From: Bordetella genomosp. 4
GTDB taxonomy: Bacteria; Pseudomonadota; Gammaproteobacteria; Burkholderiales; Burkholderiaceae_B
Direction of reading: 5' to 3'
Length of the DNA: 64,000 bases
NCBI RefSeq assembly: GCF_002261185.1
Contig: NZ_NEVQ01000003.1
Location: forward strand, 186,001-250,000
The translations under genes were made by a program, and so were the position numbers. Each line of letters starts with the position of its first letter. The first letter of the stretch is position 1. The notes under the pieces are model-generated. The model made no database searches. It worked only from the letters and a program-made list of their open reading frames with translations, and had not been told where the DNA came from. This document shows, piece after piece, positions 6,679 to 45,695 of the stretch.

Positions 6679-6840
6679 GTCGAGCCGAGGCAATCGGCCC
6701 GGCCGGGCTTCACAAAGTCGGTCCGGCGCGCGGGCGCCGGACACCGTGTTCGCTCACCTCGTCCGCGCCTGCGCGCTCCCTACGGTGTCCGCTCCACTCG
6801 ACTTTGAGGCGCCCGGCCGGGCCGATTGCCTCGGCTCGAC
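6679..6840 (+). repeat. palindromic module A
   Basis: Two perfectly complementary 30-bp arms (6679-6708 and 6811-6840, starting GTCGAG) enclose 102 bp. Inside the arms a TTCAC/GAGGC internal loop is followed by a short AAAGTC/GACTTT helix, then a GC-rich hairpin (GGTCCGGCGC region). It is in sense with the upstream plus-strand gene and is followed by a T-run at about 6892-6897. Confidence 0.9.
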
Positions 6841-7373
6841 TGGCAGCAATTAGAGCTCTCTGCATCGCTGGCACGACTTTCTTGCTTGGCGTTTTTTCGC
6901 AGCCGCATTGGTAGAGAGAAAGATCTTGCGGTGCTGCTTTCGGCGGCCGCCCTGCGCGGCCACCTCAAGCGATCGGTCCGGGCATGCGGGAGGGGTGGCG
7001 TGGTGCCTAGTTGGAAGATCTGCTTGGCCGCGAGTGAGGCTTGCGGCGATGATGCATAGCGCAGGTTTTCTGCCGGCGTATCCGTAGCATGCCCGTGCTC
7101 TGGATCAGAGTTCATTCGCAGACCTGATTTGCGCTCACCATGACCGCGCTATAACGAGTGCCATGCGTGGCATTACGTCAATGTGACTCGAGAGATCTTT
7201 TGTCCGGCAACGGTGCCACAGCGTCTGCATGCAGATCCCGAACGCGATGACCGGGTGTGCAGGGCACCCGGTCATCGCAGCCCTGCAAGATCTTTCTCTT
7301 CACCCAGGCTGACACAGAAAAATGCCAAGCAAAAAAGCCGTGCCAGCGATGTGATGAGCTTGAGTTACTGCGA

Positions 7374-7537
7374 GTCGATGCGGGGCAGTGGCTGCGTGGG
7401 GGCGCCTCGTTGGCGAGCGGAGCGGACACCGTAGGTAGGCCCGAACGGGCCGGACGAGGTGAGCGAACGCGGTGTCCGGCGCCCGCGCGCCGGACCGCCA
7501 ACGTGAAGCCCCCACGCAGCCACTGCCCCGCATCGAC
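7374..7537 (-). repeat. palindromic module B
   Basis: Perfect 30-bp arms (7374-7403, 7508-7537) enclose 104 bp. Read on the minus strand it has the same internal order as module A (TTCAC, short helix GTTGGCG/CGCCAAC, GC-rich hairpins, GAGGC). The arm sequence differs from A and equals that of module C. It ends 12 bp from the pxpA stop codon and is in sense with pxpA. Confidence 0.9.
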
Positions 7538-7549
7538 GTCCAATAGCAC

Positions 7550-8320
7550 TCAAACCTTCCGAATCTCAACTCCCGCCTTCAGCAACGCCTCTCTAAGCCC
7601 TTCAGCAAACACCACCGCATTAGGCTGATCCCCATGAATGCAAAGCGTGTCTGCTTGAACCGGAACATCACGTCCATTGACCGAGCGGACAACTCGATCC
7701 TGGACCATGCGCAGCACCTGGGCGACGGCAGTATCGAGATCCTCGATCATCGCGCCCGCCTGTGTGCGAGGCGTCAGGGATCCATCATCCTGGTAAGTGC
7801 GATCGGCAAACACCTCATTGGCAGCCCGCAAACCGAGTTCATTGGCAGCCTCGATGAGATAGCTGCCCGGTAAACCATACAGGACAAGGCTTGCATCGAC
7901 ATCGTGAACCGCCCGAGCGATGGCTTGCGCTAGAGGGCGGTCTTTGACGGCCATGTTGTAGAGCGCGCCGTGAGCTTTGACATGATGCAGACGCGTGCCC
8001 TGCGTGGCAGCGACGGCGGCCAGGGCGCCGACCTGGTAGACCACCATATCGTAGGCTTCTTGCGGCGTGACCTGCATCGGGCGGCGGCCGAAGCCCACCA
8101 GATCGGGCAGGCTCGGGTGGGCGCCGATTGATACGTTGTGCTTCAGCGCAGCGGCGACCGTCTTGCGCATGGTAGAGGGATCGCCACCATGAAATCCACA
8201 GGCGACGTTCGCTGAGCTGACAAACTGCAGCACCGCATCGTCGTTGCCCATGTGCCAGGCGCCATAGCTTTCGCCCATGTCGCAGTTCAGATCGATGACG
8301 AGATTGGTCGTGGCGGTCAT
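7550..8320 (-). CDS. pxpA: 5-oxoprolinase subunit A (LamB/YcsF family)
   Basis: This is the 256-residue component of ATP-dependent 5-oxoprolinase, which opens 5-oxoproline (pyroglutamate) to glutamate with PxpB and PxpC in the cytoplasm. The N-terminal DLNCDMGES and ANVACGFHGGDP motifs are typical of the family. It is last in the minus-strand run VOC-pxpB-pxpC-pxpA, 114 bp after pxpC, so it may have its own ribosome entry. Its stop lies almost against palindrome B. Confidence 0.93.
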   Translation of the reverse strand: MTATTNLVIDLNCDMGESYGAWHMGNDDAVLQFVSSANVACGFHGGDPSTMRKTVAAALKHNVSIGAHPSLPDLVGFGRRPMQVTPQEAYDMVVYQVGALAAVAATQGTRLHHVKAHGALYNMAVKDRPLAQAIARAVHDVDASLVLYGLPGSYLIEAANELGLRAANEVFADRTYQDDGSLTPRTQAGAMIEDLDTAVAQVLRMVQDRVVRSVNGRDVPVQADTLCIHGDQPNAVVFAEGLREALLKAGVEIRKV

Positions 8321-8434
8321 GATGAAGTTCCTGATAGAACGAATGATTGTGAGTGGCCGTGACGGTGCAGGGTGGGCGTCGGATTCTGTGTTCGACGTCT
8401 AGCCGAGGATCAACATAATCCTAACCCGTAGACG

Positions 8435-9436
8435 TCAGGTGCGCAGCAATGCCCGTAACGGCGCGAGCGCTTCCTGCAGCTGCGTGAAGGCTTCTTCGCG
8501 CTCGCCGTCGAGCCGTTGCGCTTCGTCGAGCTCGATCGATGCAAAGCGCACGCTTTGCCCGGGCCTGCGTTGTGCGAGGTCGGGCAAATCGACTGAGATG
8601 ACCTGCGCGATTTTGGGATAGCCACCGGTACTCTGGCGATCGGCCATGAGGACAATGGCTTCGCCACCGGATGGAACCTGAATGGTGCCGTAACCGGTCG
8701 CTTCGGACAGAATCTGGCGCGGCGTGGTCATGGCCAGCGGTGGGCCTTCCAGCCGATAGCCCATGCGATCCGATTGTGTGCTGATGCGGAATTCGGCATG
8801 CAAGAGATCGTGTTGCGACTCGGGGGTGAATTCGTCCCAGTGCACACCCGGGAGCAAGCGCAAGTAGTCCCGTGTCCGTCCTGACAACGCAGACGGCACA
8901 TAAACGCGGATTTGCCATAGTGCCTGAGCCAATTCGGATAGCGACTCTGGCGCAGTGGGCAGTGATGCGTGCAGCCCGATGACATCGCCTTTGGCCAAGG
9001 CGCGCCCCGCATGGCCGCCAAAGCCGCCACGTACATAAGTGCTCGTGCTGCCCAGGACAGGCGTTAGCGCATAGCCTCCATGAACAGCGAGATAGGCTCG
9101 TACGCCCGTATCTGGAGGCGCAGCGCCAAACGCCAATACATCACCCGCACGCGCGATCAGAGGGCGATAGCCTGCAACCGGATTGCCGTTGAGCGTGGGC
9201 TGCAAGTTGGCGCCGGTCATGGCAAAACAGGCGGGCGCCTCGAATCGCAGCGTCGGACCCGTCAGGGTGATTTCCAAAGAGGCGTGATCTGCATCGTTGC
9301 CCGCCAGCAAGTTCGCCAGCCGATGGGCTTTCAGATCCATCGCGCCACAGACGGGGACTCCCACGTGCTGGCTGCCGGTGCGGCCAAGGTCCTGGAATGT
9401 CGACAATAGACCCGGTTTGAGGACGGTGATACTCAT
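8435..9436 (-). CDS. pxpC: 5-oxoprolinase subunit C (biotin-dependent carboxyltransferase-like, KipA family)
   Basis: This 333-residue protein has the family N-terminus (ITVLKPGLLSTFQDLGR) and the motif SDRMGYRLEGP, and ends with the QSTGGYPKIAQV region. It forms the catalytic complex with PxpB. Its start overlaps the pxpB stop by four bases, which suggests translational coupling. The name 'urea carboxylase-related' sometimes given to this family would be misleading here because pxpA and pxpB are adjacent. Confidence 0.93.
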   Translation of the reverse strand: MSITVLKPGLLSTFQDLGRTGSQHVGVPVCGAMDLKAHRLANLLAGNDADHASLEITLTGPTLRFEAPACFAMTGANLQPTLNGNPVAGYRPLIARAGDVLAFGAAPPDTGVRAYLAVHGGYALTPVLGSTSTYVRGGFGGHAGRALAKGDVIGLHASLPTAPESLSELAQALWQIRVYVPSALSGRTRDYLRLLPGVHWDEFTPESQHDLLHAEFRISTQSDRMGYRLEGPPLAMTTPRQILSEATGYGTIQVPSGGEAIVLMADRQSTGGYPKIAQVISVDLPDLAQRRPGQSVRFASIELDEAQRLDGEREEAFTQLQEALAPLRALLRT

Positions 9437-10158
9437 CGCTTTGTCTCGCGCAGACGGTCAAACTCGGCCGCGTCGATCGGCACAAAGCGTACTCGATCAC
9501 CGGGCTGCATCAGGGTCGAGGGCGTACGCGCCGGATCGAATAGCGATAGCGGGGTCGCACCGATGATGTTCCATCCGCCTGGCAAGCGGCTGGGATACAG
9601 CACGCTTTGACGATTGGCGACGGCGACGGAGCCGGGAGGTACCGCTGTGCGCGGTGACGCGCGGCGAGGGATGTTCAAGCGCTCGTCGTGTACGCCGATG
9701 TACGGCAGACCTGGGGCGAATCCCAGCATGAACACCAGATTGCCCGGTTGTGTGTGCAACGCGATGACCTCGTCGGTCGAGATGCCGGCATGCCGAGCCA
9801 CCTCGTCCAGATCGGGGCCATATTCCCCGCCATAACAGACCGGGATCTCGACATCTCCCCCCGTTTGCGTATCGGGGGTGATGCCTTGCGACAGGATCCG
9901 TTCGATTTGTGCCGCGAGCTCAGCGTAACGCGGTCCGTGCCGGCCATTAGGCTGGTAATGAACGGCCAGTGCAATGAATGACGGCACCACGTCCGTCACA
10001 CCGGGCAGCTCGGCTTGCCGCAGCAGATTCGCCGCGGCCAGGCACAGGCGGCCGATCGACATGTCGATCTGGTCGCCAAAGTAAATCATCAGGCAACGAT
10101 CGCCTTGGGGCTGAATGCGCCAGGCGGCTGAACTGGATGTGAGGGGAGATTCGTTCAC
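9433..10158 (-). CDS. pxpB: 5-oxoprolinase subunit B (KipI family)
   Basis: The 241-residue product carries the allophanate-hydrolase subunit 1 domain. Family features include GDRCLMIYFG near the N-terminus, FIALAVHYQP, and the C-terminal GFAPGLPYIG and LPGGWNIIG motifs. It pairs with PxpC. It starts 24 bp after the VOC gene and overlaps pxpC, consistent with one operon. Confidence 0.92.
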   Translation of the reverse strand: MNESPLTSSSAAWRIQPQGDRCLMIYFGDQIDMSIGRLCLAAANLLRQAELPGVTDVVPSFIALAVHYQPNGRHGPRYAELAAQIERILSQGITPDTQTGGDVEIPVCYGGEYGPDLDEVARHAGISTDEVIALHTQPGNLVFMLGFAPGLPYIGVHDERLNIPRRASPRTAVPPGSVAVANRQSVLYPSRLPGGWNIIGATPLSLFDPARTPSTLMQPGDRVRFVPIDAAEFDRLRETKR

Positions 10159-10182
10159 CAGGGCAACCGCCTCCAGACGGGA

Positions 10183-10614
10183 TTATTTTGCGAACAAAGA
10201 GTCCAGGTTTTTGAACGACTTGAATTCCAGAGCATTGCCCGACGGATCCAGGAAGAACATCGTAGCCTGTTCGCCGACTTCGCCTTTGAAACGGACGTAG
10301 GGCTCGATCACGAATTTCGTGCCGGCATCGGTCAGTTTTTTGGCCAGGGCTTCCCAGTCTTCCATGGGCAGGACCGCGCCAAAGTGGCGAACCGGCACAT
10401 CGTGGTCGTCGACAGCGCTGGTCGATTTGTGACCGCACTCGTCGGGCGACAAGTGTGCAACGATCTGGTGGCCATAGAAATTGAAATCCACCCACTCAGG
10501 CGCGCTGCGCCCCTCCGGACAGCCTAGCAACTCGCCATAAAATGCGCGGGCCTCGGCGATGTCGCGGACAGGAAATGCGAGGTGAAAAGGGGGCAGGACG
10601 GCAGGGGTACTCAT
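10183..10614 (-). CDS. VOC-superfamily (glyoxalase/dioxygenase-like) protein
   Basis: This 143-residue vicinal-oxygen-chelate protein has the metal-type signature [16 protein letters not shown] at the N-terminus and [15 protein letters not shown] at the C-terminus, so His and Glu ligands are present. The frame extends ten residues upstream, but [14 protein letters not shown] at 10614 is the natural start. It is the first gene of the run leading into pxpB, which suggests a linked but unknown reaction. Promoter-like AT-rich sequence lies upstream. Confidence 0.82.
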
Positions 10615-10934
10615 ACAAACTCCGAATCGATAAGGATAAATCAAAATAAGTGGGCCTGTGTCGCGATCCCGTCACCGAGAAACTCAGCGTACGGATGGCA
10701 ACCGCATGGCGGATAGTGTAGCCACTGTTTTTTGATAGAAAAACGATATTTTTTGGGTGTGAGCATCAAAAAAATCGATTATTTCATCGATGCGTATTTC
10801 GGGGAGCTATGTCATCGGGGCGTTGAAAGTTTGTCGTGCTCACGGCCGGGACGAGGTCCCCGAATCGGACGGTATGGCGCAATAGCGAGCGGCGCCCACT
10901 CCGACGCCGCCCCTGTCCTGTCAATAACAGTCTG
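10615..10934. other. intergenic region between the VOC gene and serA
   Basis: These 320 bases hold no gene. The middle (about 10725-10800) is AT-rich and contains the 18-bp inverted repeat 10774-10791 (two ATCGAT arms) and two TTTTTT blocks, a plausible operator/promoter for the VOC-pxp operon on the minus strand. TACACT (minus strand, about 10714-10719) is a possible -10. No regulator gene is adjacent. Confidence 0.4.
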
Positions 10935-12134
10935 TCAGACCAGATCGCAGCGCACCGTAATGGGGTGGTTGCGCAGCGTCGCCAGCACGGCGTCGCTGAC
11001 TTCGCCGTCGACGTCTGTAATCACATAGCCTACCTGGCCGCGTGTCTGCAGGCTCTGGCTGACGATGTTCAGGCCCTGTTCGGCCAGCAGATTGTCCAAC
11101 GTACCCAATGCCCCCGGCGCGTTGCGGTGCACGTGCAAAATACGCGCCTCGCCTGCGGGCTCTTGGTAGGGCAGTTCGGGGAAATTGACCGCCCCCTTGG
11201 TTGTGCCTGCCTGCAGGAATCTCACCAGTTTTTCCGCGACCTCGCGGCCGATGTTCTCTTGGGATTCCTGCGTGCTGCCGCCAATGTGCGGCGTCAACAA
11301 TACATTGGGCATGCCGATGAGCGGGCTGGCCAGCGGCTCGTTCGGGCCTTTGGGCTCGGTGGGAAAGACGTCTAGTGCAGCGCCCGCCACATGGCCGGCT
11401 TTCAGCGCTGCATGCAGCGCATCGATATCCACGACGGTGCCGCGGGAGGCGTTGATCAAGATCGCACCGCGTTTCATCTGCGCCAGCGTGTCTGCATTGA
11501 TCAGGTTTTCGGTGCTTTTGCCACCCGGCACATGCAGCGTCACCACATCGGCCTGCTCCAGCAATTCCGTCAGCGTGGTCGCTGCGCGGGCATTGCCTAG
11601 CGGCAGTTTGCCCTCGACATCATGGAACACGACTCGCATGCCGAGACTTTCCGCCAGTGTGCTGATCTGCGAGCCGATATTGCCATAGCCGATGATGCCC
11701 AGTGTCTTGCCTCGGATCTCGAACGCGCCCGTGGCGGATTTATCCCAGTGCCCCTGATGCACACGGGCATTCTTCTCCGGGATACGCCGCAGCAGCAGAA
11801 TCGCCTCGCCGAGCACCAGCTCTGCGACCGAACGGGTGTTGGAAAATGGCGCGTTGAATACCGGGATGCCGCGTTGCATCGCGTGATTCAGGTCCACCTG
11901 ATTGGTGCCGATACAAAAACATCCCACCAGCCGCAGATCGGGAGCGGCGGCAAAGGCCTCTGCGTCCATTTGGGTGCGAGAACGGATCCCCGCCACGTGC
12001 GCGCCGCGCAGGGCTTCGCGCAGTTCAGACGGCGGCAGGGCCGTCGCATGCGTGACGATGTCGGTGTAGCCCGCTGCGGCGAAGACTTCGCGGGCACTGG
12101 GATGGATGTTCTCGAACAGGACGATCTTGGTCAT
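10935..12134 (-). CDS. serA: D-3-phosphoglycerate dehydrogenase
   Basis: The product oxidises 3-phosphoglycerate to 3-phosphohydroxypyruvate, the committed step of serine synthesis. At 399 residues it has the 2-hydroxyacid dehydrogenase catalytic region, the NAD-binding GIIGYGNIGSQ motif at about 146-156, the catalytic-type LTPHIGGST motif, and a C-terminal ACT domain (HRNAPGALGTLDNLL), like the E. coli enzyme. It is separated from the phoBR operon by a terminator. Confidence 0.95.
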   Translation of the reverse strand: MTKIVLFENIHPSAREVFAAAGYTDIVTHATALPPSELREALRGAHVAGIRSRTQMDAEAFAAAPDLRLVGCFCIGTNQVDLNHAMQRGIPVFNAPFSNTRSVAELVLGEAILLLRRIPEKNARVHQGHWDKSATGAFEIRGKTLGIIGYGNIGSQISTLAESLGMRVVFHDVEGKLPLGNARAATTLTELLEQADVVTLHVPGGKSTENLINADTLAQMKRGAILINASRGTVVDIDALHAALKAGHVAGAALDVFPTEPKGPNEPLASPLIGMPNVLLTPHIGGSTQESQENIGREVAEKLVRFLQAGTTKGAVNFPELPYQEPAGEARILHVHRNAPGALGTLDNLLAEQGLNIVSQSLQTRGQVGYVITDVDGEVSDAVLATLRNHPITVRCDLV

Positions 12135-12159
12135 GGATGCGGCAGGGGGAAAGGCGGTG

Positions 12160-12208
12160 AAAAAAAGGCAGGCCCGAACGGAAGGAGTAAATGAAACTCT
12201 TTCCGTTC
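12160..12208 (-). terminator. rho-independent terminator of the phoB-phoR operon
   Basis: Read on the minus strand, a 12-bp stem with one mismatch (12197-12208 with 12176-12187, loop 9) is followed within about ten bases by seven T residues (complement of 12160-12166). It lies just after phoR and before serA. Confidence 0.8.
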
Positions 12209-12272
12209 ATTGTGACGCAGTTTTCCGCCCGGGACCCGAGAGTCCATTCGGTCTGTATGGCGATAGCGCCGG

Positions 12273-13571
12273 TCAGGCAGCCGCGACCCTTTCCGCTGGA
12301 AAATGCAACGCGAACGTGCTGCCTTTACCCGGCTCGCTGGTGATGGTCAGCTCTGCATCGTGGCGGATGGCGATGTGTTTGGTGATGGCCAACCCCAGAC
12401 CCGTGCCGCCTGCAGCGCGCGAACGGCCCCGGTCAACGCGGTAAAAACGCTCGGTGAGACGCGGGATATGCAGCGCTGCGATGCCGATCCCCGTGTCTTG
12501 GACACTGTAGCGCGCTCCGCCATCGGGCGCGCCCTGCCAGCGTACTGTGATGGTGCCCCCGTCAGGCGTATAGCGCACGGCATTGGTCAGCAGATTTGAC
12601 ATGGCCGAGGCCAGTTCGGTCTCTGCGCCCAGGACGTCAAGGGACTCGTCGATATCCCAGTGAAAGACATGCCGGCCAGCGGAGAGGGCTTCGATCTGCT
12701 GGCGGGTGGTCTGCAACAGGGCGGGCACATTGACGGCTCGCGGGTCGGATCCGGGCGACGATTCCAGCGTGGACAGGGTCAGCAGGTCTTCTACGATGGC
12801 CTGCATGCGCAAGGCCTGCTCGTGCATCATGGACAGGTACTGGGCGCGCTGCTCTTCATCCAACGCCTCGGCGGGCATATCGCGCAGCGTTTCCAGAAAT
12901 CCGGCCAATACCGTCAGCGGCGTGCGCAGTTCGTGCGATACGTTGGCGACGAAATCGCGCCGCGTCGTTTCCAGTTTTTCGATCTGCGTGACGTCGCGCG
13001 TGATCAACAGGCGGCGATTGCTGGCGTAGGCAGCCAAGTGCATCATCATGACGCGCTCTTGCCCTCCGTGAACCAGGCGGACCAGGATGGGCTCGGGCCA
13101 GTCGCTGCGGTGGGCGTAGGCGACAAACTCCGGAGCGCGCAGCAGATTCAGCAGATTCTGGCCGCGATCGGCCGGCAGATTCAGCGTCAAATGGTGGCGT
13201 GCGACGCGATTGCACCATTCAATCTGAAAGTCTTCGTTCAATGTCACGACGCCGTCGGGCAAGGCCTGGGCCGCGGACAGCATGCTTTGCATGGCAGCAC
13301 GGGCCTCGGCCAAATCCCGTGCGCGAGCGCGGGTATAGCGATACAGCGGCGCCAGTATGTCGTCCCACGGTCCGACCGACGCAGGGGGCGAGGTTTCGGG
13401 ATGGTGGGCCCAATGCGACACCGAACGCAGCCGCCAGCTGCGCCAGAACAGCATGAATAACAGTGCTGCGCAAAATACCACCCAACCCGCCGGGTCGCCG
13501 ATCAGCCATTGCAGGAACAGTGAAATGATCGCCCAGAGGGTGACCAGGAAAAAAGTGCGCAGCCAGATCAT
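12273..13571 (-). CDS. phoR: phosphate-regulon sensor histidine kinase
   Basis: This 432-residue kinase senses phosphate status through the Pst system and phosphorylates PhoB. Two N-terminal hydrophobic segments (about 4-24 and 30-45) anchor it. A PAS-type region (DGVVTLNEDFQIEWCN) follows, then HisKA with the phospho-acceptor His213 (VSHELRTPL), and an HATPase domain (NLLTNAVRYTP, DTGIGI, GTGLGL). It is 12 bp after phoB in one operon. Confidence 0.93.
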   Translation of the reverse strand: MIWLRTFFLVTLWAIISLFLQWLIGDPAGWVVFCAALLFMLFWRSWRLRSVSHWAHHPETSPPASVGPWDDILAPLYRYTRARARDLAEARAAMQSMLSAAQALPDGVVTLNEDFQIEWCNRVARHHLTLNLPADRGQNLLNLLRAPEFVAYAHRSDWPEPILVRLVHGGQERVMMMHLAAYASNRRLLITRDVTQIEKLETTRRDFVANVSHELRTPLTVLAGFLETLRDMPAEALDEEQRAQYLSMMHEQALRMQAIVEDLLTLSTLESSPGSDPRAVNVPALLQTTRQQIEALSAGRHVFHWDIDESLDVLGAETELASAMSNLLTNAVRYTPDGGTITVRWQGAPDGGARYSVQDTGIGIAALHIPRLTERFYRVDRGRSRAAGGTGLGLAITKHIAIRHDAELTITSEPGKGSTFALHFPAERVAAA

Positions 13572-13583
13572 CGTGGCTGTTTT

Positions 13584-14282: not shown

Positions 14283-14439
14283 TGGCAATAGAGGCAGACG
14301 ATGAGCGCCGGCAGGCGCGAACATTGCGATAGTATGGCCGGAATATTTCAGGTATGTGACGATTTGGTGTTTTGCTGCCGGCTTTCTGCTGTCTTGGGCC
14401 TCGATCGGCTACCATTGCGTCATATACCGGGCTCTTACT

Positions 14440-20488: not shown

Positions 20489-20496
20489 CGTCGGTC

Positions 20497-20622
20497 GCGG
20501 CTGGAGAGTCCGCTTGAGCAGGCTTATGAGTTCCGGTGGCGGCTGAGGAGTCCGCTTGAGACGGCTTACGAGTTCCGGTGGCGGCTGAGGAGTTCGCTGT
20601 TTGGGCTTATGAGTTCTTTAGG
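20497..20622. repeat. three-copy 42-bp tandem repeat
   Basis: Units begin at 20497, 20539 and 20581 with GCGGCTG and contain GAGTCCGCTTGAG and GAGTTCCGGTGGC. The first two differ at a few positions; the third is more diverged and runs into the left arm of the next palindrome. It begins 8 bp after the rfaE2 stop. Confidence 0.85.
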
Positions 20623-20623
20623 C

Positions 20624-20841
20624 GCCGGGGCTCGTCGTGTAAAGGGCGCGCTGGCCCTATCGCCTGGTCTGGCCGCCTGCGCGGCCAGACTGCCCTCCAC
20701 CTGTCTTGCCAGGCGGGGCGGCTGGGCAAACTCGCTCCGCTACGCTCCACTCAAACATGCCCAGCCGACTTCCCCCCGCCTGGCAAGACAGGTTCGGCAG
20801 GCTCTACGGGCCAGCGCACCCTTTACACGACGAACCCCGGC
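20624..20841. repeat. large hyphenated palindrome F (diverged module)
   Basis: Thirty-four-bp arms (20624-20657 and 20808-20841) match with two mismatches. Inside is a second pair of arms around CCTGTCTTGCCAGGCGGGG and TGCCCAGCC, plus a GGTCTGGCCG/CGGCCAGAC hairpin and a CTCCGCTACGCTCCACTC stretch like that in module D. The arms share little sequence with the 30-bp modules, but the order of parts and the convergent location are the same. The remaining 130 bp up to 20973 is GC-rich without visible genes. Confidence 0.8.
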
Positions 20842-27698: not shown

Positions 27699-28784
27699 CT
27701 AGCGAGAATGGCGGACCCGATCCAGGTCCTGGCATATTTGCTCCGCCATGCCGATCAAACGTGGTCCGGGACGATAGAGCGCATCGGCATCGAGGCTGAA
27801 TACGAAGCCTTGCTGTGCGGCGGGCAGGCCATATTGTCGCCAGGTTTGCAGGTTGCTACGGCCATCGTCGGCGCTGATCGCCCCGGCTATCACCGCGTCC
27901 GGCCGCGCGGCAAGCACGCTTTCGAGCGACACCTGCGGCGCCAGCGCGTTTGTCTGCGCAAACACATTGACGCCGCCGCACAGACGTATGGCATCGCTGA
28001 CGATACTGCGGCCGTTCAGGGTGTAAATCGGCTGCAGGCCGGCTTGAATGAAAACGCGCACGGGTGCGAGATGCGTGTAGCGTGCGGACAGCGAGGCGAG
28101 CCGGGCGCGTAAAGCCTCGGCTGCAGGATTGGCCTGCGTCTCGGTGCCGAACAAGCGGCCCATGGTTTCCACCGCGTCGGGAATCTCGGCCAAGGTGCGC
28201 GGGTCGCTGTAGAACACCGGCACTTTCTGGCGTTGCATGAGATCCCCCAATGGATCAGGGACCGCTGGCTGCCAGGCGATCAGCAGGTCGGGTTGCAGCG
28301 CTGCTGCGATTTCCAGGTTCGGTCGCAGTGTGGTGCCGATGGAAGGCAGCGTGAGGGCCGCGGGGGGGTAGTTACTGCCCTGGGCAGTGCCGGCGAGATA
28401 GATGCCTGCGCCAGCCGCGTAAACCAATTCTGTGGCATGTGGCGCGGCCGTGATGGCACGCCGCGCGGGGGCGGGCAGCGTGATGGTATGGCCGTGATCA
28501 TCGCGCAGTGTGATCACTGCGCGATGCGCCGTCGTTGCAACGGGTGCGGGGGCCGTCGCTATTTGTGGTCGCTCCGATGCCGTTGCTGCCACAGCGGTTG
28601 ACGGGACAGTCGCAGCCGAGATTGTTTTTGCGGTCGTTGAGGCAACGTGGGCAGCACCCCGTGTCACGGTTGCCGTATCCGCCCACGCAGACATTGCGGT
28701 CAGGCCGAGCAGTGCTGCCGCCAATGCCCGTCCATCCAGGCTGAAAAGCCTGGCACCACTGGAGGCGGGCAGGGCGGATTGCAT
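27699..28784 (-). CDS. btuF: periplasmic cobalamin-binding protein (BtuF-like)
   Basis: The 361-residue protein has a signal segment (about 16-35), a long Ala/Thr-rich low-complexity linker (about 36-92), and a class III substrate-binding domain starting ITLRDDHGHTITLPAPARRAIT. Motifs such as APHATELVYAAGAG and LQPDLLIAW are typical of BtuF/FhuD. Its ATG overlaps the stop of the TonB receptor (TGATG). The upstream B12 riboswitch supports cobalamin as ligand. BtuC/BtuD are not adjacent. Confidence 0.85.
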   Translation of the reverse strand: MQSALPASSGARLFSLDGRALAAALLGLTAMSAWADTATVTRGAAHVASTTAKTISAATVPSTAVAATASERPQIATAPAPVATTAHRAVITLRDDHGHTITLPAPARRAITAAPHATELVYAAGAGIYLAGTAQGSNYPPAALTLPSIGTTLRPNLEIAAALQPDLLIAWQPAVPDPLGDLMQRQKVPVFYSDPRTLAEIPDAVETMGRLFGTETQANPAAEALRARLASLSARYTHLAPVRVFIQAGLQPIYTLNGRSIVSDAIRLCGGVNVFAQTNALAPQVSLESVLAARPDAVIAGAISADDGRSNLQTWRQYGLPAAQQGFVFSLDADALYRPGPRLIGMAEQICQDLDRVRHSR

Positions 28785-30874: not shown

Positions 30875-31045
30875 CGGGGCGTCCCGGTGGGTGAACTGGC
30901 CGGTGTCGGGCTGCCATGCGGCGCGATGCACGCATGGGGACCGTTGCGGGGGCAGCACAGGCTGGGCGCGGCGCGCCTTCCTGTTTCCCGTTTACCTTCG
31001 GCGCGCATCGCGCACCAGAAGCACCAGTTCGGGGCCGCACTGTAG
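30875..31045 (-). promoter_or_regulatory. cobalamin (AdoCbl) riboswitch
   Basis: Reading the minus strand, AACGGGAAACAGGAAG (about 30977-30992) is followed by GCTGCCCCCGCAACGG (about 30942-30957) and then by the B12 box GCAGCCCGACACCGGCC (30898-30914). The order and motifs match the class I cobalamin riboswitch. It precedes btuB by about 60-80 bp. Flank limits are approximate. Confidence 0.9.
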
Positions 31046-34911: not shown

Positions 34912-34932
34912 TGGGGGTTAGTGCTATTGGAC

Positions 34933-35095
34933 GTCGATGCGGGGCAGTGGCTGCGTGGGGGCTTCACGTGGCCGGTCCGGCGCCCTGCGCGCCGGACACC
35001 GTGTTCGCTCACCTCGTCCGCGCCTTCGCGCTCCCTACGGTGTCCGCTCCACTCGACCACGAGGCGCCCCCACGCAGCCACTGCCCCGCATCGAC
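34933..35095 (+). repeat. palindromic module C
   Basis: Perfect 30-bp arms (34933-34962, 35066-35095) enclose 103 bp. The arm sequence equals that of module B, 27 kb away. Inside the TTCAC/GAGGC loop the short helix is GTGG(C)C/G(A)CCAC, and the inner GCGC-CTTC-GCGC hairpin differs from the GGCCC hairpin of B. In sense with metH, starting 22 bp after its stop. Confidence 0.9.
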
Positions 35096-35629
35096 TCGCA
35101 GTAACTCAAGCTCATCACATCGCTGGCACGGTTTTCTTGCTTGGCATTTTTCTGCATCAGTCTGGGTAAAGAGAAAGATCTTGCAGGGCTGCGATTCACG
35201 GGTGCCCTGCACACCCGTGAATCGCGTTCGGAATCTGCATGCACAGGCTGTGGCACCGTTGGATGGCAAAAGATCTCTCGAGTCACATTGACGTAATGCC
35301 ACGCATGGCACTCGTTGTAATGCCATCATGGTTAGCCCAAATCACGTCCGCGAATGAACTCTAATCCAGAGCACGGACATGCTACGGATACGTCGCCGGA
35401 AAAAGTGCCCTACGCATCATCGTCGCAAGCACCAAACGCAGCCAAGCAGATCTTCCGATCAGGCATGACGCCACCCCGTCGCATGCCCGGACCGATCGCT
35501 TGAGGTAGGCGCGCTGGGCGCCTGCCGAAAGCAGCACCGCAAGATCTTTCTCTCTACCAATGCGGCTGCAAAAAAACGCCAAGCAAGAAAGTCGTGCCAG
35601 CGGTGTAGAGAATTCTAATTGCTGCCAGT

Positions 35630-35652
35630 CGGGCCGATTGCCTCGGCTCGAC
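35630..35652. repeat. collapsed palindrome (single arm remnant)
   Basis: Only the outer 23 bp of one arm (CGGGCCGATTGCCTCGGCTC plus GAC) remain, next to GCTGCCAGT. Compared with module A, about 140 bp comprising one arm and the loop are missing. This is the expected product of deletion between palindrome arms. Confidence 0.75.
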
Positions 35653-35685
35653 GACCAACAGAACTCCATCCCTCACACAGCCCCA

Positions 35686-37377: not shown

Positions 37378-37527
37378 GCAATCTGGAATTTTCCTGGATT
37401 GTTCAATGACCGCTCGCCTAAGCGATCGGCCGTGCCGCCGTGTGAATAGCAAACGAAGGCTTTCAACTCGGTCGATCAGGCGGAGCTCCATGTTGCCGCC
37501 GAGTACCGTACTGTCAGGGGCAGTGGC

Positions 37528-38586: not shown

Positions 38587-38659
38587 AGCGCGGGATTATC
38601 GCACCCCGCGCCTGCCCAGCGGTTCGCTCGACTTCAACGAGTACGGCGAGGCATGGGTA

Positions 38660-38840
38660 CATAATTAGATGATTTTAAAAAATGGCCTGACTATATATAT
38701 AAGTTATGTAGCCATGATCAGAGGCCATTTGCCGCGACAGTTCGTCTGAAACTTTTATTTTCTGAACGTAACAGAAAAATAAAAATACGTCCGAATTTCT
38801 TGGCCATGAGCCCGAAAAAATCGGTCTCATGGCCGGCTTG
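38660..38840. other. AT-rich intergenic island with three hairpins
   Basis: In the gap between ftsX and mutY, base composition drops sharply. Three inverted repeats follow one another: 38680-38688/38722-38730 (AAATGGCCT), 38754-38764/38772-38783 (TTTATTTTCTG), and a 14-bp stem with one mismatch and AAAAA loop at 38802-38834. The last could terminate ftsEX on the minus strand. TATATATA at about 38691-38700 may serve mutY. Confidence 0.6.
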
Positions 38841-38858
38841 GCTTTAATGCGTCCCCGA

Positions 38859-39767: not shown

Positions 39768-40432
39768 TCGTGGGCTCCCGAATCAAAGAACTTGCCGGGT
39801 TCCAGCCGCAGGGTGCGCGTCGCGTACTGCGCCATCAGGGCCTGATCGTGCGAAGCAATCAATGTCGTGACACCAACGCGATTGAAGTCGCGAAACACAT
39901 TCAAAATGCGCCGCGCCGTGTCCTGGTCCAGGTTTGCCGTCGGTTCGTCGGCAATCAAGATCGCAGGCCGGTTCACGATCGCGCGCGCAATGGCCAGGCG
40001 TTGTTGTTCACCGCCAGAGAGTTCGATCGGATTCATATCTTCTTTACCTGCCAGGCCGACCTTGTCCAGGGCGGCGCGCGCTCGCGCGCTGGCGGGCCCG
40101 TGGGCTTGACCGGTGACCGCCAGGGGAAGCATGACGTTCTGCAGGGCGCTGCGATCAAACAGCAAGTGAGTGTCTTGCAGGATCACGCCCACCGCACGCC
40201 GCAGATAGGGCCGCGCACGTGCCGAGAGCTGGTCCAGACGCTGGCCGTTGACCTGGATCGAACCCCGGCTGGCAGGCTCCAGCCCGCCGATTAGTTTCAG
40301 CAAGGTGGATTTGCCCGCGCCCGACGCCCCTGAGACAAACAGGAACTCGCCGGCGGTTACGCGGAAATTGATGTCGGCCAGGATGTTGCGGCCGCGCCCA
40401 TACGATTTGAAGACGTGCTGGAATTCGATCAT
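39764..40432 (-). CDS. ftsE: cell-division ATP-binding protein FtsE
   Basis: The 222-residue ABC ATPase partner of FtsX has Walker A GASGAGKSTLLK, signature LSGGEQQRLAIARA, Walker B ILIADEP, and the FtsE-type N-terminus MIEFQHVFKSYGRG. The frame is open 34 codons upstream, but this start at 40432 is the conserved one. Confidence 0.94.
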   Translation of the reverse strand: MIEFQHVFKSYGRGRNILADINFRVTAGEFLFVSGASGAGKSTLLKLIGGLEPASRGSIQVNGQRLDQLSARARPYLRRAVGVILQDTHLLFDRSALQNVMLPLAVTGQAHGPASARARAALDKVGLAGKEDMNPIELSGGEQQRLAIARAIVNRPAILIADEPTANLDQDTARRILNVFRDFNRVGVTTLIASHDQALMAQYATRTLRLEPGKFFDSGAHE

Positions 40433-40647
40433 GGCGGCAAGAAAGGATGAAGCAGCAATAGTACCGTGTGTATTCCGGTTAGTGGGACGTGTCACGCTTG
40501 TTGCATATTTCTTGTGTCCCCTTTTTTTGCTCAACTTGTCGAGGGATTTCCCCCATGTCCCCGAATATCTCCAACCGCTACCATCCCCGGCGATGCTTGA
40601 ATTGCCGGATTACGTTGCACAGCAAGCGTTTCTTACAGGAGATCCAA

Positions 40648-41664
40648 ATGAAAGCACTAAAATTAGCCGCAGTGGCTGCTGCGTTATTGGCTACTGCGGC
40701 GACCGCTCATGCGGGTGCCACTTTTGATAGCGTCAAAAAGAAAGGTTTCGTCCAGTGCGGCGTGTCCACGGGGATTTCGGGTTTTTCCATGGCCGACAGC
40801 AAAGGGCAATGGCAAGGGATTGACATCGATATGTGCCGCGCCATCGCAGCCACGATGTTCAACGACGCGACCAAATTCAAAGTCACTCCGCTGAATACGC
40901 AGCAGCGTTTTACCGCGCTGCAGTCCGGCGAGGTCGATGTATTGACTCGTAATACGACGCAAACGCTGACGCGCGACACCACCCTGGGCCTGATTGGCGC
41001 CGGCGTGAACTACTACGACAGCCAAGGCGTGATGGTGTCCAAAGAGCTGGGCGTCAAGAGCGCGAAAGAACTGAACGGCGCTACCGTCTGCGTTCAGCCT
41101 GGCACCACTACCGAACTCAACCTGGCCGACTGGTTCCGCGGCGAAAAGATCGAGTTCAAGCCAGTCGTGATCGACAAGTACGACGAAATCATCCGCGCTT
41201 TCTCGGCCGGTCGCTGCGACGCCTTCACGACCGACAAGTCGCAATTGGCTTCGAGCCGCACCACGCTCGAAAAACCTGACAATTACATCATCCTGCCGGA
41301 AGACTTCTCGAAAGAGCCGCTCGGCCCCATGGTGCGTCAGGGCGATGAGCAGTGGTTCAACGTTGTTCGTTGGACGCTGAACGCCATGATCGAAGCCGAA
41401 GAATATGGCATTACGTCCAAGAACGTCGACGAAATGACCAAGAATCCCAATCCCAATATTCAACGCATCCTGGGCGTGACCCCGGGCATGGGCAAGAACC
41501 TGGGTGTGGATGACAAGTGGGCCTACAACATCATCAAGCAGGTCGGTAACTACGGCGAAAGCTTTGAGCGCACGCTCGGGATGAGCAGCCCCATGAAACT
41601 TGAACGCGGCCTGAATGCCTCGTACAAGAAGGGCGGCATTATGTACGGTTGGCCGGTGCGCTAA
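40648..41664 (+). CDS. aapJ: general L-amino-acid ABC transporter, periplasmic binding protein
   Basis: The 338-residue class-3 solute-binding protein has a signal peptide (about 1-22, AHAGATFDSVKKKG). The mature part matches AapJ/BztA: VQCGVSTGISGFS, GVNYYDSQGVMV, GRCDAFTTDKSQL. The ATG at 40648 follows CAGGAGAT. First gene of a four-gene transporter operon for broad L-amino-acid uptake. Confidence 0.93.
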   Translation: MKALKLAAVAAALLATAATAHAGATFDSVKKKGFVQCGVSTGISGFSMADSKGQWQGIDIDMCRAIAATMFNDATKFKVTPLNTQQRFTALQSGEVDVLTRNTTQTLTRDTTLGLIGAGVNYYDSQGVMVSKELGVKSAKELNGATVCVQPGTTTELNLADWFRGEKIEFKPVVIDKYDEIIRAFSAGRCDAFTTDKSQLASSRTTLEKPDNYIILPEDFSKEPLGPMVRQGDEQWFNVVRWTLNAMIEAEEYGITSKNVDEMTKNPNPNIQRILGVTPGMGKNLGVDDKWAYNIIKQVGNYGESFERTLGMSSPMKLERGLNASYKKGGIMYGWPVR

Positions 41665-41677
41665 GCATCGCTGCCGG

Positions 41678-41762
41678 GCAAGACGGGATCAACCCGTCTT
41701 GCTTTGATGTCCGCATCATGCGGACGGCAGGAGTGAGGTGGCCTGCGGCGGGTCCCAGGCCA
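41678..41762 (+). repeat. three intercistronic hairpins after aapJ
   Basis: A perfect 10-bp stem (41678-41702, GCAAGACGGG, loop ATCAA) is followed by GTCCGCA hairpin 41709-41725 and TGGCCTG hairpin 41739-41762. Lacking a long T-run, they probably stabilise the aapJ mRNA or attenuate read-through, giving more binding protein than permease. Confidence 0.7.
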
Positions 41763-41792
41763 TTCCTGTTTTGACTTCTGTAGAAGCTTTTC

Positions 41793-42983
41793 ATGACGAC
41801 AAACAACCCTCAAGCTCCAGTGGCCGCGCCCAAACGCCGCCTCAGCTGGAACGATCCCGGCGTGCGCGCCGTGGTCTATCAGGTTGTCGCGCTGGCCCTC
41901 GTTGCCTGGGCCGTGTGGTTCCTGGTTTCTAATACTCTGAATAATCTGCAGGTACGCAATATTTCGACGGGTTTCGGCTTTCTCGATCGAGAGGCTGGAT
42001 TCGCGATCGGCGAGACTCCGGTCGCCTATAGCCCTGCGGACACGTACGGCCGCGCCATCTGGGTCGGCTTGCTCAATACGCTGCGCGCTGCGGTGCTGGG
42101 CATTATCTTTGCGACGATTCTGGGCACGCTCATCGGCGTGGGACGCTTGTCCAAGAACTGGTTGATCGCCAAAGTCTGCTCGGTCTATGTCGAGGTCATG
42201 CGCAACGTACCACTGCTGTTGCAGCTGTTCTTCTGGTACGCGCTGATTACCGAAAACATGCCCGGTCCGCGCCAGGCGTACAACCCGCTGCCTGGTGTGT
42301 TTATTTCCAATCGTGGCTTGAAGGTGCCTGGTCTGGAAGGCAACTCCATGGATTGGATACTCGGCGGCTTGGCGCTGGCGATTGTCGGCACGATTCTGGT
42401 GGCGCACTGGGGCAAGAAACGCCAAGAGGCCACCGGTCAGATTTTCCCGCTGGGGCGTGCAGCGTTAGCGCTGTTCATTGGTTTGCCGATACTAGGCTGG
42501 CTCGTCAGCGGCGCGTCGCTGTCGTTGAATATGCCCGAGTTGAAAGGTTTTAACTTCAGCGGCGGCTTGACGCTGTCGCCTGAGTTTGCTGCATTGCTCG
42601 CGGGTCTGGTGATCTACACCGCTGCCTTTATTGCGGAAGTCGTTCGCTCGGGTATCCAGGCTGTCAACCATGGCCAATGGGAGGCTGCCGGCTCGTTAGG
42701 GTTGCGACGTTCCCGCGTACTGCGTCTGGTGGTATTGCCTCAGGCCTTGCGCGTGATCATTCCGCCCATGACCAGTCAGTACCTGAACTTGACCAAGAAC
42801 AGCTCGCTGGCGGTGGCGATCGGCTACCCCGATATCGTGTCGGTGGTCAACACCATGATGAATCAGACGGGCCAGGCGATCGAGGGCATCTTGATCATCA
42901 TGGCGGCCTATCTGACCGTCAGTCTGTCGATCTCGATTTTCATGAACTGGTACAACAAGCGCATTGCGCTGGTGGAGCGTTGA
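41793..42983 (+). CDS. aapQ: amino-acid ABC transporter permease AapQ
   Basis: The 396-residue inner-membrane permease has an N-terminal TM (about 30-48), a periplasmic insertion, and a HisM/AapQ permease core with the EAA loop NHGQWEAAGSLGLRRSRVLRLVVLPQA near 295-320 (shown in part). Length is in the range of AapQ/BztB. Its stop is 1 bp before aapM. Confidence 0.92.
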   Translation: MTTNNPQAPVAAPKRRLSWNDPGVRAVVYQVVALALVAWAVWFLVSNTLNNLQVRNISTGFGFLDREAGFAIGETPVAYSPADTYGRAIWVGLLNTLRAAVLGIIFATILGTLIGVGRLSKNWLIAKVCSVYVEVMRNVPLLLQLFFWYALITENMPGPRQAYNPLPGVFISNRGLKVPGLEGNSMDWILGGLALAIVGTILVAHWGKKRQEATGQIFPLGRAALALFIGLPILGWLVSGASLSLNMPELKGFNFSGGLTLSPEFAALLAGLVIYTAAFIAEVVRSGIQAVNHGQWEAAGSLGLRRSRVLRLVVLPQALRVIIPPMTSQYLNLTKNSSLAVAIGYPDIVSVVNTMMNQTGQAIEGILIIMAAYLTVSLSISIFMNWYNKRIALVER

Positions 42984-42984
42984 T

Positions 42985-44085
42985 ATGAGTACGACTACGC
43001 CTATCCCCAGCGAAGGCCTGCCGCCGCCCAAAAACCAGGTGGGCCTGTGGCCCACCTGGAAAGAACGCCTGTTCTCGTCTCCCTTGAGCATCCTGGCCAC
43101 GGTGTTGACGGCCTGGGTGCTGATCATGGCGGTGCCCGCGTTGATCGATTGGGCATTCTTGCAGGCGGATTTCACCTCGTCGACTGCGCAGGAATGCCGC
43201 AAGGCCGCAGGCGCATGCTGGGCATTCATTGCTGAAAAGCATCGTCTGATCTTGTTTGGCACTTATCCCTACGATGAACAGTGGCGGCCGCTGATCGCTA
43301 CCATCATCTTGATTGCGGTCATCGTGTGCAGCGGCTTGCGCCGCTTCTGGAACGCACGCCTGGCGCTGATCTGGGTTGTGGGCCTGACGGCTGTGGCGGT
43401 GCTGATGTGGGGCGGTGTGTTTGGTCTGACCTACGTCGAAAACTCGTTGTGGGGCGGCCTGCCGCTGACATTGATCCTGTCGACGTTCGGTATTGCTTTT
43501 GCTTTCCCGCTGGGCGTGTTGCTGGCCCTGGGCCGCCGATCAAAAATGCCGGCTATCAAAGCCCTCTGCGTCGTGTACATCGAGTTGATTCGCGGCGTGC
43601 CGCTGATCAGCCTGTTGTTCATGTCCTCGGTCATGTTGCCGCTGTTCTTGCCGGTAGGCTTTTCCATCGACAAACTGCTGCGTGCGCAGATCGCCATCAT
43701 CATGTTCGCGGCGGCCTACATCGCCGAGACTGTGCGGGGCGGCTTGCAGGCTATTCCAAAGGGGCAGTACGAGGGCGCCGATTCACTGGGGCTGAACTAC
43801 TGGCAGCAAATGCGCAAGATCATCTTGCCGCAGGCGCTGCGCATCGTGATTCCGCCTTTGGTCAGCATCTTTATCGCGCTGTTCAAAGACACGTCGCTGG
43901 TGGTGATCATCGGGATTTTCGATCTGACGCTGGCTGCCAAGGCAGCGCTGTCGGATGCGGCATGGCGCGGCTTCGGTATTGAGGCCTACGTCTTCATTTC
44001 ACTGATTTATTTCGTGTTCTGCTTTTCGATGTCGAAATACAGCCAACGTCTGGAAACGCGCTTGGCGGCCGGACAGAAACGATAG
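42985..44085 (+). CDS. aapM: amino-acid ABC transporter permease AapM
   Basis: The 366-residue second permease has a long N-terminal region with one TM (about 40-60), several further TMs, and a C-terminal core with the EAA loop PKGQYEGADSLGLNYWQQM. The ATG at 42985 directly follows the aapQ stop. Pairs with AapQ to form the channel. Confidence 0.92.
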   Translation: MSTTTPIPSEGLPPPKNQVGLWPTWKERLFSSPLSILATVLTAWVLIMAVPALIDWAFLQADFTSSTAQECRKAAGACWAFIAEKHRLILFGTYPYDEQWRPLIATIILIAVIVCSGLRRFWNARLALIWVVGLTAVAVLMWGGVFGLTYVENSLWGGLPLTLILSTFGIAFAFPLGVLLALGRRSKMPAIKALCVVYIELIRGVPLISLLFMSSVMLPLFLPVGFSIDKLLRAQIAIIMFAAAYIAETVRGGLQAIPKGQYEGADSLGLNYWQQMRKIILPQALRIVIPPLVSIFIALFKDTSLVVIIGIFDLTLAAKAALSDAAWRGFGIEAYVFISLIYFVFCFSMSKYSQRLETRLAAGQKR

Positions 44086-44145
44086 TTGCCTGGCCCGGGA
44101 CCGCTCAGAGCGGCTCGGGCAGGCGAACCTTTTGGGAGTACAGGC

Positions 44146-44886
44146 ATGAGTGATGCCATCATCCGCTTGCAGAACGTGAACAAGTGGTACGGTCAGTTCC
44201 ACGTGCTGCGCAATATCAATCTGGATGTGACGCCAGGCGAACGTATTGTAATCTGCGGTCCATCGGGCTCGGGTAAGTCGACGATGATTCGCTGCATCAA
44301 TCGTCTGGAGGAACACCAGCAAGGTCAGATCATTGTCGATGGCACTGAGTTGACCAATGACCTGAAGCAGATCGAAACCATCCGCCGCGATGTCGGCATG
44401 GTGTTTCAGCACTTCAATCTGTTTCCGCATCTGACCGTGCTGGAAAACCTGACGTTGGGGCCGACGTGGGTGCTGAAGAAATCACGTGCCGAGGCCGAGG
44501 CGACGGCCATGAAATATCTGGAGCGTGTTCGTATTCCAGAGCAGGCCAACAAGTATCCCGGTCAGCTTTCGGGCGGCCAGCAACAGCGTGTGGCGATTGC
44601 GCGGTCTTTGTGCATGAGCCCCAAGATCATGCTGTTCGATGAGCCGACCTCCGCGTTGGATCCGGAAATGGTGAAAGAAGTGCTGGACGTGATGGTGACG
44701 CTGGCTCAGGAAAGCGGCATGACCATGCTGTGCGTGACGCACGAAATGACGTTCGCGCGTAAGGTGGCTGATCGGGTCATCTTCATGGACCGTGGTGAGA
44801 TCATCGAGCAGAATAGTCCGGATCAGTTCTTTGATAATCCGCAGAACGAGCGTACGAAGCATTTCTTGAGTCAGATTTTGCATTGA
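44146..44886 (+). CDS. aapP: amino-acid ABC transporter ATP-binding protein AapP
   Basis: The 246-residue ATPase has Walker [13 protein letters not shown], signature [14 protein letters not shown], Walker [17 protein letters not shown] and the H-loop [29 protein letters not shown] at 44146, with GGGAG upstream, is the family start. Last gene of the operon; repeat element 3 follows within 45 bp. Confidence 0.94.
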
Positions 44887-44944
44887 GGAGTGCTTGCCGG
44901 GGGGGGGGCGTCGGCGGCGTGGGGGTGCATGAGTTCTGTTGGAC

Positions 44945-45096
44945 GTCGAGGCGGGGCAGTGACCGTGTTGGCGCTTCACGGAGTCGGTCGGCCGCCTGCG
45001 CGTCCGACTCCGCTTCGTCAACCTCGTCGCTACGCTCCTTCGGTTTCCCTCGCTCGACTCCGAGGCGCGCCAACACGGTCACTGCCCCGCCTCGAC
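44945..45096 (+). repeat. palindromic module D
   Basis: Perfect 30-bp arms (44945-44974, 45067-45096) enclose 92 bp. The arm sequence differs from A, B/C and E. The short inner helix is GGAGTCG/CGACTCC. The following flank lacks the clear T-run of the other copies. In sense with aapP. Confidence 0.9.
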
Positions 45097-45531
45097 TCGC
45101 AGCATCTCTGATTCCCTCGTCGCTGGCACGACTGGTCTACGTAGGCTTCGTAGGAACTGGCGTTTGCAAGGATGAAGATCTTGCAGGGCGGCTATTCATG
45201 GCCGCCTACGGGCGCGGCCATGAATAGCGTTCGGGATTGGCATGCGAAGGCTTTGGCATCGGAGATGAACAGAAGCTCTCTCGAGCTACGATTTCGTTAT
45301 ACCTAGAGATGAGCTGCGCATCATCGTCGCATGCATCAACGCTAGCCAAGCAGATCTTCCAACTTGGCAACACGCCACCCCGCCGCATGCCCGGACCGAT
45401 CGCTATTCGCGCGTGTGCAGGGCACGCGCGAATAGCAGCACCGCAAGATCTTTCTCTTTGCCAACAGGGCTACAAAAAAACGCCAAGCAAGAAAATCGTG
45501 CCAGCGATGTGATGAGCTTGAATTACTGCGA

Positions 45532-45695
45532 GTCGAGCCGAGGCAATCGGGCCGTGCGGGCGCCTCAAAGCCGAGTGGAGCGGAGGCTGAAGGGAGGCCC
45601 GTAGGGGCCGGACGAAGCGAGCGAACACGATGTCCGGCGCCCGCGCGCCGGACCGGCTTTGTGAAGCCCGCACGGCCCGATTGCCTCGGCTCGAC
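45532..45695 (-). repeat. palindromic module E
   Basis: Perfect 30-bp arms (45532-45561, 45666-45695) enclose 104 bp. Arms resemble module A in the outer 18 bp and differ towards the loop, still fully complementary. The short helix is AAAGCCG/CGGCTTT and the inner hairpin GGCCC-CTAC-GGGCC. In sense with the minus-strand Bug gene; the minus-strand flank has eight T residues. Confidence 0.9.

Follow-up and report, generated by a model that had tools for sequence, protein, structure and literature searches.

We analysed a 64,000-nt window of the Bordetella genomosp. 4 genome (contig NZ_NEVQ01000003.1, forward-strand positions 186,001 to 250,000, assembly GCF_002261185.1; coordinates below are those of the window), in which three copies of a dispersed hairpin-bearing element are spread over 39 kb, each between the ends of two convergent genes (Table 1). 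A first-pass annotation of this DNA had described five inverted-repeat modules (A to E) whose arms differ between copies and stay complementary, and had proposed that the fold is maintained as RNA or as a DNA cruciform. The five inverted repeats lie where it placed them, with perfect 30-bp arms in all five and four arm sequences, B and C sharing one; the arms of A and E are identical in their first 19 bases. The TTCAC/GAGGC internal loop and the next helix are also seen as quoted in A, B, D and E. In C, which was left out of that description, this helix (GTGGCCG/CGACCAC) has one mismatch. The distal hairpin of the modules is CGC..GCG or GGCCC..GGGCC. The modules are not independent objects: A and B form opposite ends of one composite element, as do D and E of another, and in element 2 the partner hairpin of C is mostly deleted.

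Each composite consists of two inverted units. From the outside inwards, a unit comprises a terminal motif (GTTCTATTGGTC or similar; consensus G(G)TTCTTNNGGNC, conserved and inverted at both ends), a long hairpin (hp1), a linker and a second hairpin (hp2), and the other half is its inverted homologue. Hairpin hp1 has a near-perfect stem of about 30 bp, an asymmetric unpaired internal loop, two or three inner helices and paired ends; it measures 152-164 nt in the set from the anchored arm search described below and about 107-170 nt overall. Hairpin hp2 mostly has arms of 14-16 bp and loops of CCTGC or related sequence. The composites are about 0.6-1.25 kb long, and all 43 examined (25 and 18 from two sets) have their units in the order + then -; single units also exist.

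Table 1. Coordinates of the elements and related features in the window
Feature	Positions	Strand	Remarks
Composite element 1 (A..B) with terminal motifs	6667..7549	.	between convergent genes ending 6635 (+) and 7550 (-)
Left outer terminal motif of element 1, GTTCTATTGGTC	6667..6678	+	
hp1 A	6679..6840	+	30-bp arms 6679-6708 / 6811-6840
hp1 A internal loop	6709-6713 / 6806-6810		TTCAC / GAGGC
hp1 A next helix	6714-6719 / 6800-6805		AAAGTC / GACTTT
A-half linker, ..CTGGCACGACTTTCTTGCTTGGCGTTTTTT..AAGATCTTGC..	6841..6944	+	outline conserved across genera
A-half hp2 core	6945..6961	+	only 6 bp, GGCCGC-CCTGC-GCGGCC; weaker than other copies
B-half hp2	7244..7278	-	14-bp arms, loop TGCAGGG
hp1 B	7374..7537	-	30-bp arms; outer side is 7537
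Right outer terminal motif of element 1 (GTCCAATAGCAC on +)	7538..7549	-	
Composite element 2 (C and remnant)	34921..35664	.	between convergent metH (ends 34911, +) and methyltransferase gene (ends 35686, -)
hp1 C	34933..35095	+	arms same as B; one next-helix mismatch
C-half hp2	35191..35225	+	perfect 14-bp arms, loop CCCTGCA
Right hp1 remnant, A type	35628..35652	-	deletion joins GTCG to 3' arm end (comparison with hp1 A)
Composite element 3 (D..E)	44933..45707	.	between convergent genes ending 44886 (+) and 45749 (-)
hp1 D	44945..45096	+	30-bp arms, distal loop shorter
D-half hp2	45191..45228	+	perfect 15-bp arms
E-half hp2	45402..45436	-	perfect 14-bp arms, loop TGCAGGG
hp1 E	45532..45695	-	30-bp arms
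Probable distant relative	20613..20841	+	convergent junction 20488/20974; GTTCTTTAGGC, then hairpin with 34-nt arms (94%)
Lone terminal motif CGACGTCCAATAGAAC without element	56050..56065	-	convergent junction 56044/56150; scar, remnant or target

The perfection of the arms is not a matter of chance, since 52 of 58 distinct hairpins (61 rows, three seen twice) have no mismatch, five have one and one has two, though up to eight in 30 positions were permitted. This search covered the stretches around blastn matches and the window, required GTCGA..TCGAC ends and gave no hairpin in one stretch (L069, at a contig edge). An arm search anchored on TTC..GAGGC, allowing up to seven mismatches in 30, returned 90 rows with zero, one, two and three mismatches in 70, 12, 7 and 1, respectively; none had four to seven, so the limit did not influence the result. 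The L044 hairpin was found by the first search and missed by the anchored one, and arm counts exclude loci L099-L105, which come from the same genomes as G002/G006 or from a near strain. Many of the own-genome copies carry one of the four arm sequences.

In that genome, element 1 has 137 matching pieces by blastn. Covariance model R1, built from 35 hairpins, gave 112 matches, reverse-strand shadows and fragments included, and a hand count of the listing gave at least 72 full-length hp1 matches at 141.9 bits or more, a lower bound obtained with 150 of 4687 first-look candidates scored. Own-genome contigs C1, C3, C4, C8, C9, C10, C14, C15, C17 and C21 end inside elements; such repeats break short-read assemblies, and copy numbers are therefore lower bounds. 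All nine genomes of the genus have R1 matches, those in G004 and G008 reaching only about 65 bits and representing short hp1 variants (about 107-110 nt) without the distal loop. Within the family, matches occur in 34 of 200 genomes and in 10 of 43 genera, the own genus included; order-wide (349) and class-wide (369) genome draws, searched with an E limit of 1e-7 and stricter filters, under which weak matches are lost, gave no R1 match outside the family. From the hairpin set that supplied 18 of the composites, 15 of 80 rows were removed: one was a cut fragment, and the other 14 were reverse-strand shadows or belonged to a GGTGTC-type hairpin. A patterned hairpin search of viral contigs was also without match, and a phage or plasmid origin was set aside, as blastn found no copy in plasmid and phage collections at the sensitivity used.

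Maintenance of the fold and the strand that probably folds

The folded shape itself seems to be conserved, as judged by covariation. In alignment A1 (35 sequences, 47 pairs, 1610 cells), 97.8% of cells are paired and 36 of the 47 pairs are changed on both sides, compared with 25.7 (s.d. 1.7) after shuffling; 0 of 500 shuffles scored as high. Cells with two-sided change number 364, against 95 (s.d. 8) in shuffled alignments and 41-61 in slid structures. Such change affects 26 of 31 pairs in helix P1, six of seven in P2 and four of nine in P3, and the TTCAC/GAGGC loop, which has a matched helix on either side, is itself left unmatched. Hairpin hp2 also covaries, with 33 mismatches in 970 pairs among 65 unique hp2. 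Kinship among the sequences inflates the shuffle comparison, and a structure derived from the sequences favours itself over its slid versions; both are unlikely explanations given the large effect and the arms of other genera, which are unrelated in sequence yet retain pairing. Compensatory change in several helices, the central claim of the first-pass annotation, is thus far above the shuffled and slid controls and holds across species and genera. Pairing of the hp2 loop with its flank into a pseudoknot seemed possible but was discarded, since by eye this pairing is not kept consistently.

The arms are the most constrained part of the element within a genome, because they differ by 0-3% between copies where the middles differ by 12-16%; between species they are replaced. 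Among eight full A-B copies, arms differ by 0-0.8%, hp1 interiors by 8-11%, linkers with hp2 by 5-8% and the middle by 12%, and among eleven E-D copies the corresponding values are 1.1-3.2%, 9-20%, 8% and 16%. The refuting outcome named in the first-pass annotation, arms matched only through recent duplication, is itself refuted by these figures. At the junction of a YcsF-like gene and an FAD-oxidase gene, where the element is present in both the own genome and G007, the YcsF-side arms of the two species differ at four of 30 positions, each difference being compensated, and the arms on the FAD-oxidase side are largely different and still perfect.

How the arms change was followed by linking 36 unique arm pairs from Bordetella into a spanning forest whose edges span at most eight differences. 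Of the differences along it, 102 are compensated, made up of 70 transversions and 32 transitions, and 23 are unpaired, with A.C or G.T in 21 cases; some of the larger arm differences may be shifted alignments instead of substitutions. The transversion excess is not predicted by a simple slow pathway through G-U intermediates, which would give mostly transitions. Saturation over long times could yield it, as could block copying by template switching (PMC8794818, PMC6649704, PMC8604942), and arm-to-arm copying, by gene conversion or template switching, may well participate.

The remaining mismatches are informative about the strand, since an A.C on the strand read from outer to inner side is a G.T (G.U) on the other. 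On the outer-to-inner strand the ratio of A.C to G.T is 18:4 in Bordetella P1 (1080 pairs), 5:0 in further Bordetella P1 (380 pairs), 13:5 in P1 of genera other than Bordetella (1468 pairs; isolated mismatches only, those within three positions of another being removed), 8:2 in P2 (217 pairs) and 17:3 in hp2 (970 pairs). The total over unique arm pairs is 61:14, for which a two-sided binomial test gives p 4e-8 on the assumption that all counts are independent, an assumption that related copies violate. As a control, two own-genome families show 31 G>A and 33 C>T in their linkers, middle and inner hp1, and there is no overall mutation bias that would make the stem result. With 61:14 in the stems and 31:33 in these unscreened parts, the fold looks strand-specific, which speaks against a symmetric cruciform; of the initial proposal, the maintenance of the fold is supported and the choice between RNA and cruciform can be narrowed. 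It appears that the strand running from the centre outward must fold, with wobble tolerated, as RNA or single-stranded DNA (ssDNA); we infer that it does so most likely as RNA.

Placement between convergent genes

A first orientation caller, based on G+C content at third codon positions (GC3), proved unreliable against open frames; in its place, orientation was called with a codon-usage classifier whose training set was eight Pfam-supported genes of the window. Two of the 72 test loci (L040 and L050) adjoin training genes, and loci L106-L109 are excluded from the counts. Both flanks were called at 51 of the 72 loci: 44 are convergent, three are (--), three are (++) and one is divergent. Within the window, gene predictions give 49 junctions (17 ++, 15 --, 9 -+ and 8 +-), and the elements occupy three of the eight convergent junctions and none of the 41 others, for which chance would have a probability of about 0.003 (calculated by hand).

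Comparison of orthologous junctions shows presence and absence. Four sister genomes have gaps of 78, 109, 151 and 225 bp between the YcsF and FAD-oxidase genes with no convincing R1 match; within the 225-bp gap there is one weak match (E 7e-5), which falls on another hairpin repeat, and the stretches fetched from G001, G005 and G006 did not show the two genes close together. At the metH/methyltransferase junction the element is absent from three sisters, with gaps of 48, 32 and 76 bp, and the stretches fetched from the remaining five did not show the methyltransferase. This pattern fits gain or loss at single sites, and the empty sites of the sister species are too diverged to define a target-site duplication. 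Another hairpin repeat, GGTGTCTGACTCC..GGTGTCAGACACC, is seen at some sister-species gene ends (L247, L248, L253, L258; L080 752-846), in two cases at the same junction as own-genome element 1.

Proposed boundary role and competing explanations

We tentatively propose that the element is a dispersed non-coding repeat, resembling miniature inverted-repeat transposable elements (MITEs) or the paired form (REPINs) of repetitive extragenic palindromes (REPs), whose hairpins act as a boundary at convergent gene ends. The RNA would be the tail of a transcript arriving from the inner-side gene, or a transcript begun within the element. Hairpins hp2 and hp1 could then form a 3' boundary that stops or protects the transcript ahead of antisense read-through into the neighbouring gene. 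Both convergent genes would be served in this way by a composite; the element would spread as a non-autonomous repeat, by machinery that was not found. A boundary hairpin best joins three facts, namely the maintained fold, the outward strand and the convergent junctions. Possible, if more doubtful, is the broader claim that the elements form a so far unnamed, family-specific structured class, in which two outward-read hairpin units serve as RNA boundaries for both incoming transcripts and the fold is fixed, the stem being conserved within a genome and wholly replaced between species. A fixed fold with stems replaced between species suggests co-evolution with a recognising factor, or a strict need for perfect double-stranded RNA, for example by a processing enzyme. 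Should the boundary role be true, it would offer a testable answer to how convergent genes avoid mutual transcription where no T-tailed terminators are seen.

Several observations weigh against the boundary proposal. Seven of the 51 loci are not convergent, and 21 of the 72 lack calls for both flanks. No T-tailed terminator was found in elements 1 and 3 by a scan for short stems, whose model does not extend to 30-bp stems closing 100-nt loops, and a T-tailed terminator was rejected on this result (0 found); no sigma-70-like promoter was found in these two elements either. When the control of the mismatch comparison is split, linkers and middle give 31 G>A and 24 C>T, and inner hp1 alone gives 0 and 9, which misfits the same strand bias. 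Wobble is also rare for an RNA, with 18 A.C (G.U on the other strand) among the 1080 Bordetella P1 pairs, and an ssDNA fold would yield an identical strand bias.

A mobile element whose ends are recognised as ssDNA hairpins and moved in trans, in the manner of REPINs with their REP-associated tyrosine transposases (RAYTs) or of IS200/IS605, would account for the dispersed copies with their conserved outer motif, the presence and absence at orthologous junctions, the strand-specific fold, and arms that are fixed within a genome and different between species, as for a site that follows its own enzyme; the convergent location would then reflect target choice or the only tolerated place. We consider this explanation rather unlikely. 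Pfam Y1_Tnp is without a match in the own genome, the one with the most copies, for which reason a RAYT was rejected as mobiliser there, and G004 and G008, which are among the six of nine genus genomes with such a match, have only short hp1 variants. No gene-bearing version was found: open reading frames (ORFs) submitted from elements 1-3 and from the 1.6-kb interval of locus L226 (see below) match no Pfam family above cut-off, one DUF5877 match lying far below it. A parent transposon with the same ends was not met in the stretches read, no copy was found in the plasmid, phage and viral collections at the sensitivity used, and a target-site duplication is not definable at the diverged empty sites of the sisters. 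Mobility explains dispersal and strand, but not by itself the constancy of place. That the elements work as a double-stranded DNA cruciform or an architectural site, similar to bacterial interspersed mosaic elements (BIMEs), for example in handling supercoils between convergent genes, seems quite improbable. Positive supercoils meet between convergent genes, the preference for such junctions is strong (44 of 51), and perfect stems are very stable; in a cruciform, however, both strands would fold equally, and on the 61:14 mismatch bias the symmetric form was rejected as sole explanation.

Two further explanations dispense with selection on the fold or reduce it. Recent duplication of a few perfect hairpins, the fold not being maintained, agrees with the recurrence of four arm sequences in the own genome, but it is hardly credible and was rejected, considering the 12-16% divergence of middles against 0-3% of arms, the four compensated differences at an orthologous junction and the unrelated but paired arms of other genera. 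Arm matching might instead be mainly mutational, with template switching or hairpin repair copying the arms and the fold having little function. Template switching is known, from excerpts of PMC8794818 and PMC6649704, to create and keep perfect stems, and the 70 transversions to 32 transitions among compensated differences, with 21 of 23 unpaired differences of transition type, are unlike the slow G-U pathway. This explanation is nevertheless improbable: arm divergence is lower than that of the middle by a factor of about 4-25, where copying alone predicts divergence at neutral level; the TTCAC/GAGGC loop remains unmatched between two matched helices; the strand bias demands a strand-specific cause; and an inverted hp1 interior occurs in 0 of 43 composites examined. 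With nearly its whole sequence replaced and its pairing preserved, in numerous copies within each genome and across at least ten genera, the long stem constitutes a natural experiment for telling apart three processes (selection on the structure of RNA, selection on that of ssDNA, and copying from arm to arm), and the mismatch-type test (A.C against G.T, with a non-stem control) tells the folding strand without an experiment.

No description of the element was found in the literature, in a search that covered few subscription papers. A known Rfam family was rejected, as no element has a match above the gathering score (element 1 has one miRNA match, E 0.63, far below it). Integron attC sites likewise have variable but paired stems and conserved unpaired bases, with one strand folded, and their R boxes read GTTRRRY/RYYYAAC. 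By inspection of A1, such boxes are absent, the ends being GTCG..CGAC, and no cassette arrays are seen here. The other systems are compared through excerpts of the cited papers. Like REP, BIME and REPIN sequences with RAYTs (GTAG and CGTC super-families; PMC3733652), the elements are dispersed intergenic palindromes, often in inverted pairs (here inverted dimers, extragenic in the 25 and 18 composites), and lie downstream of genes and between convergent genes; REPs are palindromes of 20-40 bp in which a GTAG or CGTC tag is left unpaired (PMC3733652), whereas hp1 is far longer, has paired ends and no such tag, and the own genome lacks Y1_Tnp. The long terminal inverted repeats (TIRs) of TIRYT families are partly self-complementary and form families (PMC3733652), but flank a tyrosine transposase gene, and none was found here; nor do the excerpts on them mention 30-bp stems that covary. 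With MITEs (PMC3733652, PMC10969869) the elements share the lack of coding capacity (by Pfam), the dispersal and an inverted terminal motif common to the copies; MITEs measure 70-300 bp with TIRs of 15-30 bp, compared with about 0.6-1.25 kb and hairpins inside the ends here, and neither a parent transposon nor a definable target duplication was found in the stretches covered here. Bor-2 of Bordetella bronchiseptica (PMC2267715), a structured intergenic repeat of 167 nt with 17(6) copies, could be hp1 of this element family, a comparison made by description only. The betaproteobacterial repeat element (BRE; PMC3110155), usually intergenic, with about 90 bp and 69% GC, is known from Bordetella and other betaproteobacteria and is near the hp1 interior in length; it differs in being often tandem in variable number and in occurring also in Comamonadaceae and Rhodocyclaceae. 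Again by description only, BRE may overlap parts of the element, or be the GGTGTCTGACTCC..GGTGTCAGACACC hairpin. Template-switch hairpins (PMC8794818, PMC6649704) share long stems and concerted change of both arms, and none of those described in the excerpts is a dispersed element whose architecture, location and strand bias are constant.

Further features lie near or resemble the elements. The hairpin at 20613-20841, which contains an inner GC-rich perfect hairpin of 20 bp, is probably a distant relative out of the reach of R1, the tie being made by inspection without a model match. Just before it, at 20492-20575, are two tandem units of 42 nt that are 86% alike. The only Rfam match in the window is to the Cobalamin riboswitch (30892-31030, minus strand, 34.5 bits), flanked by metH (+) and by a minus-strand gene whose end is at 28784. 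Locus L226 985-3207 (G000:C21:103495-105693) has a facing pair of hp1 units separated by 1.6 kb. The interval has several TGTTTCACGTGGAACA-like and TTATCCACA motifs, which resemble parS sites and DnaA boxes, respectively. The locus was rejected as a gene-bearing version, the interval holding these motifs and no Pfam gene; its two units may flank a replication origin region.

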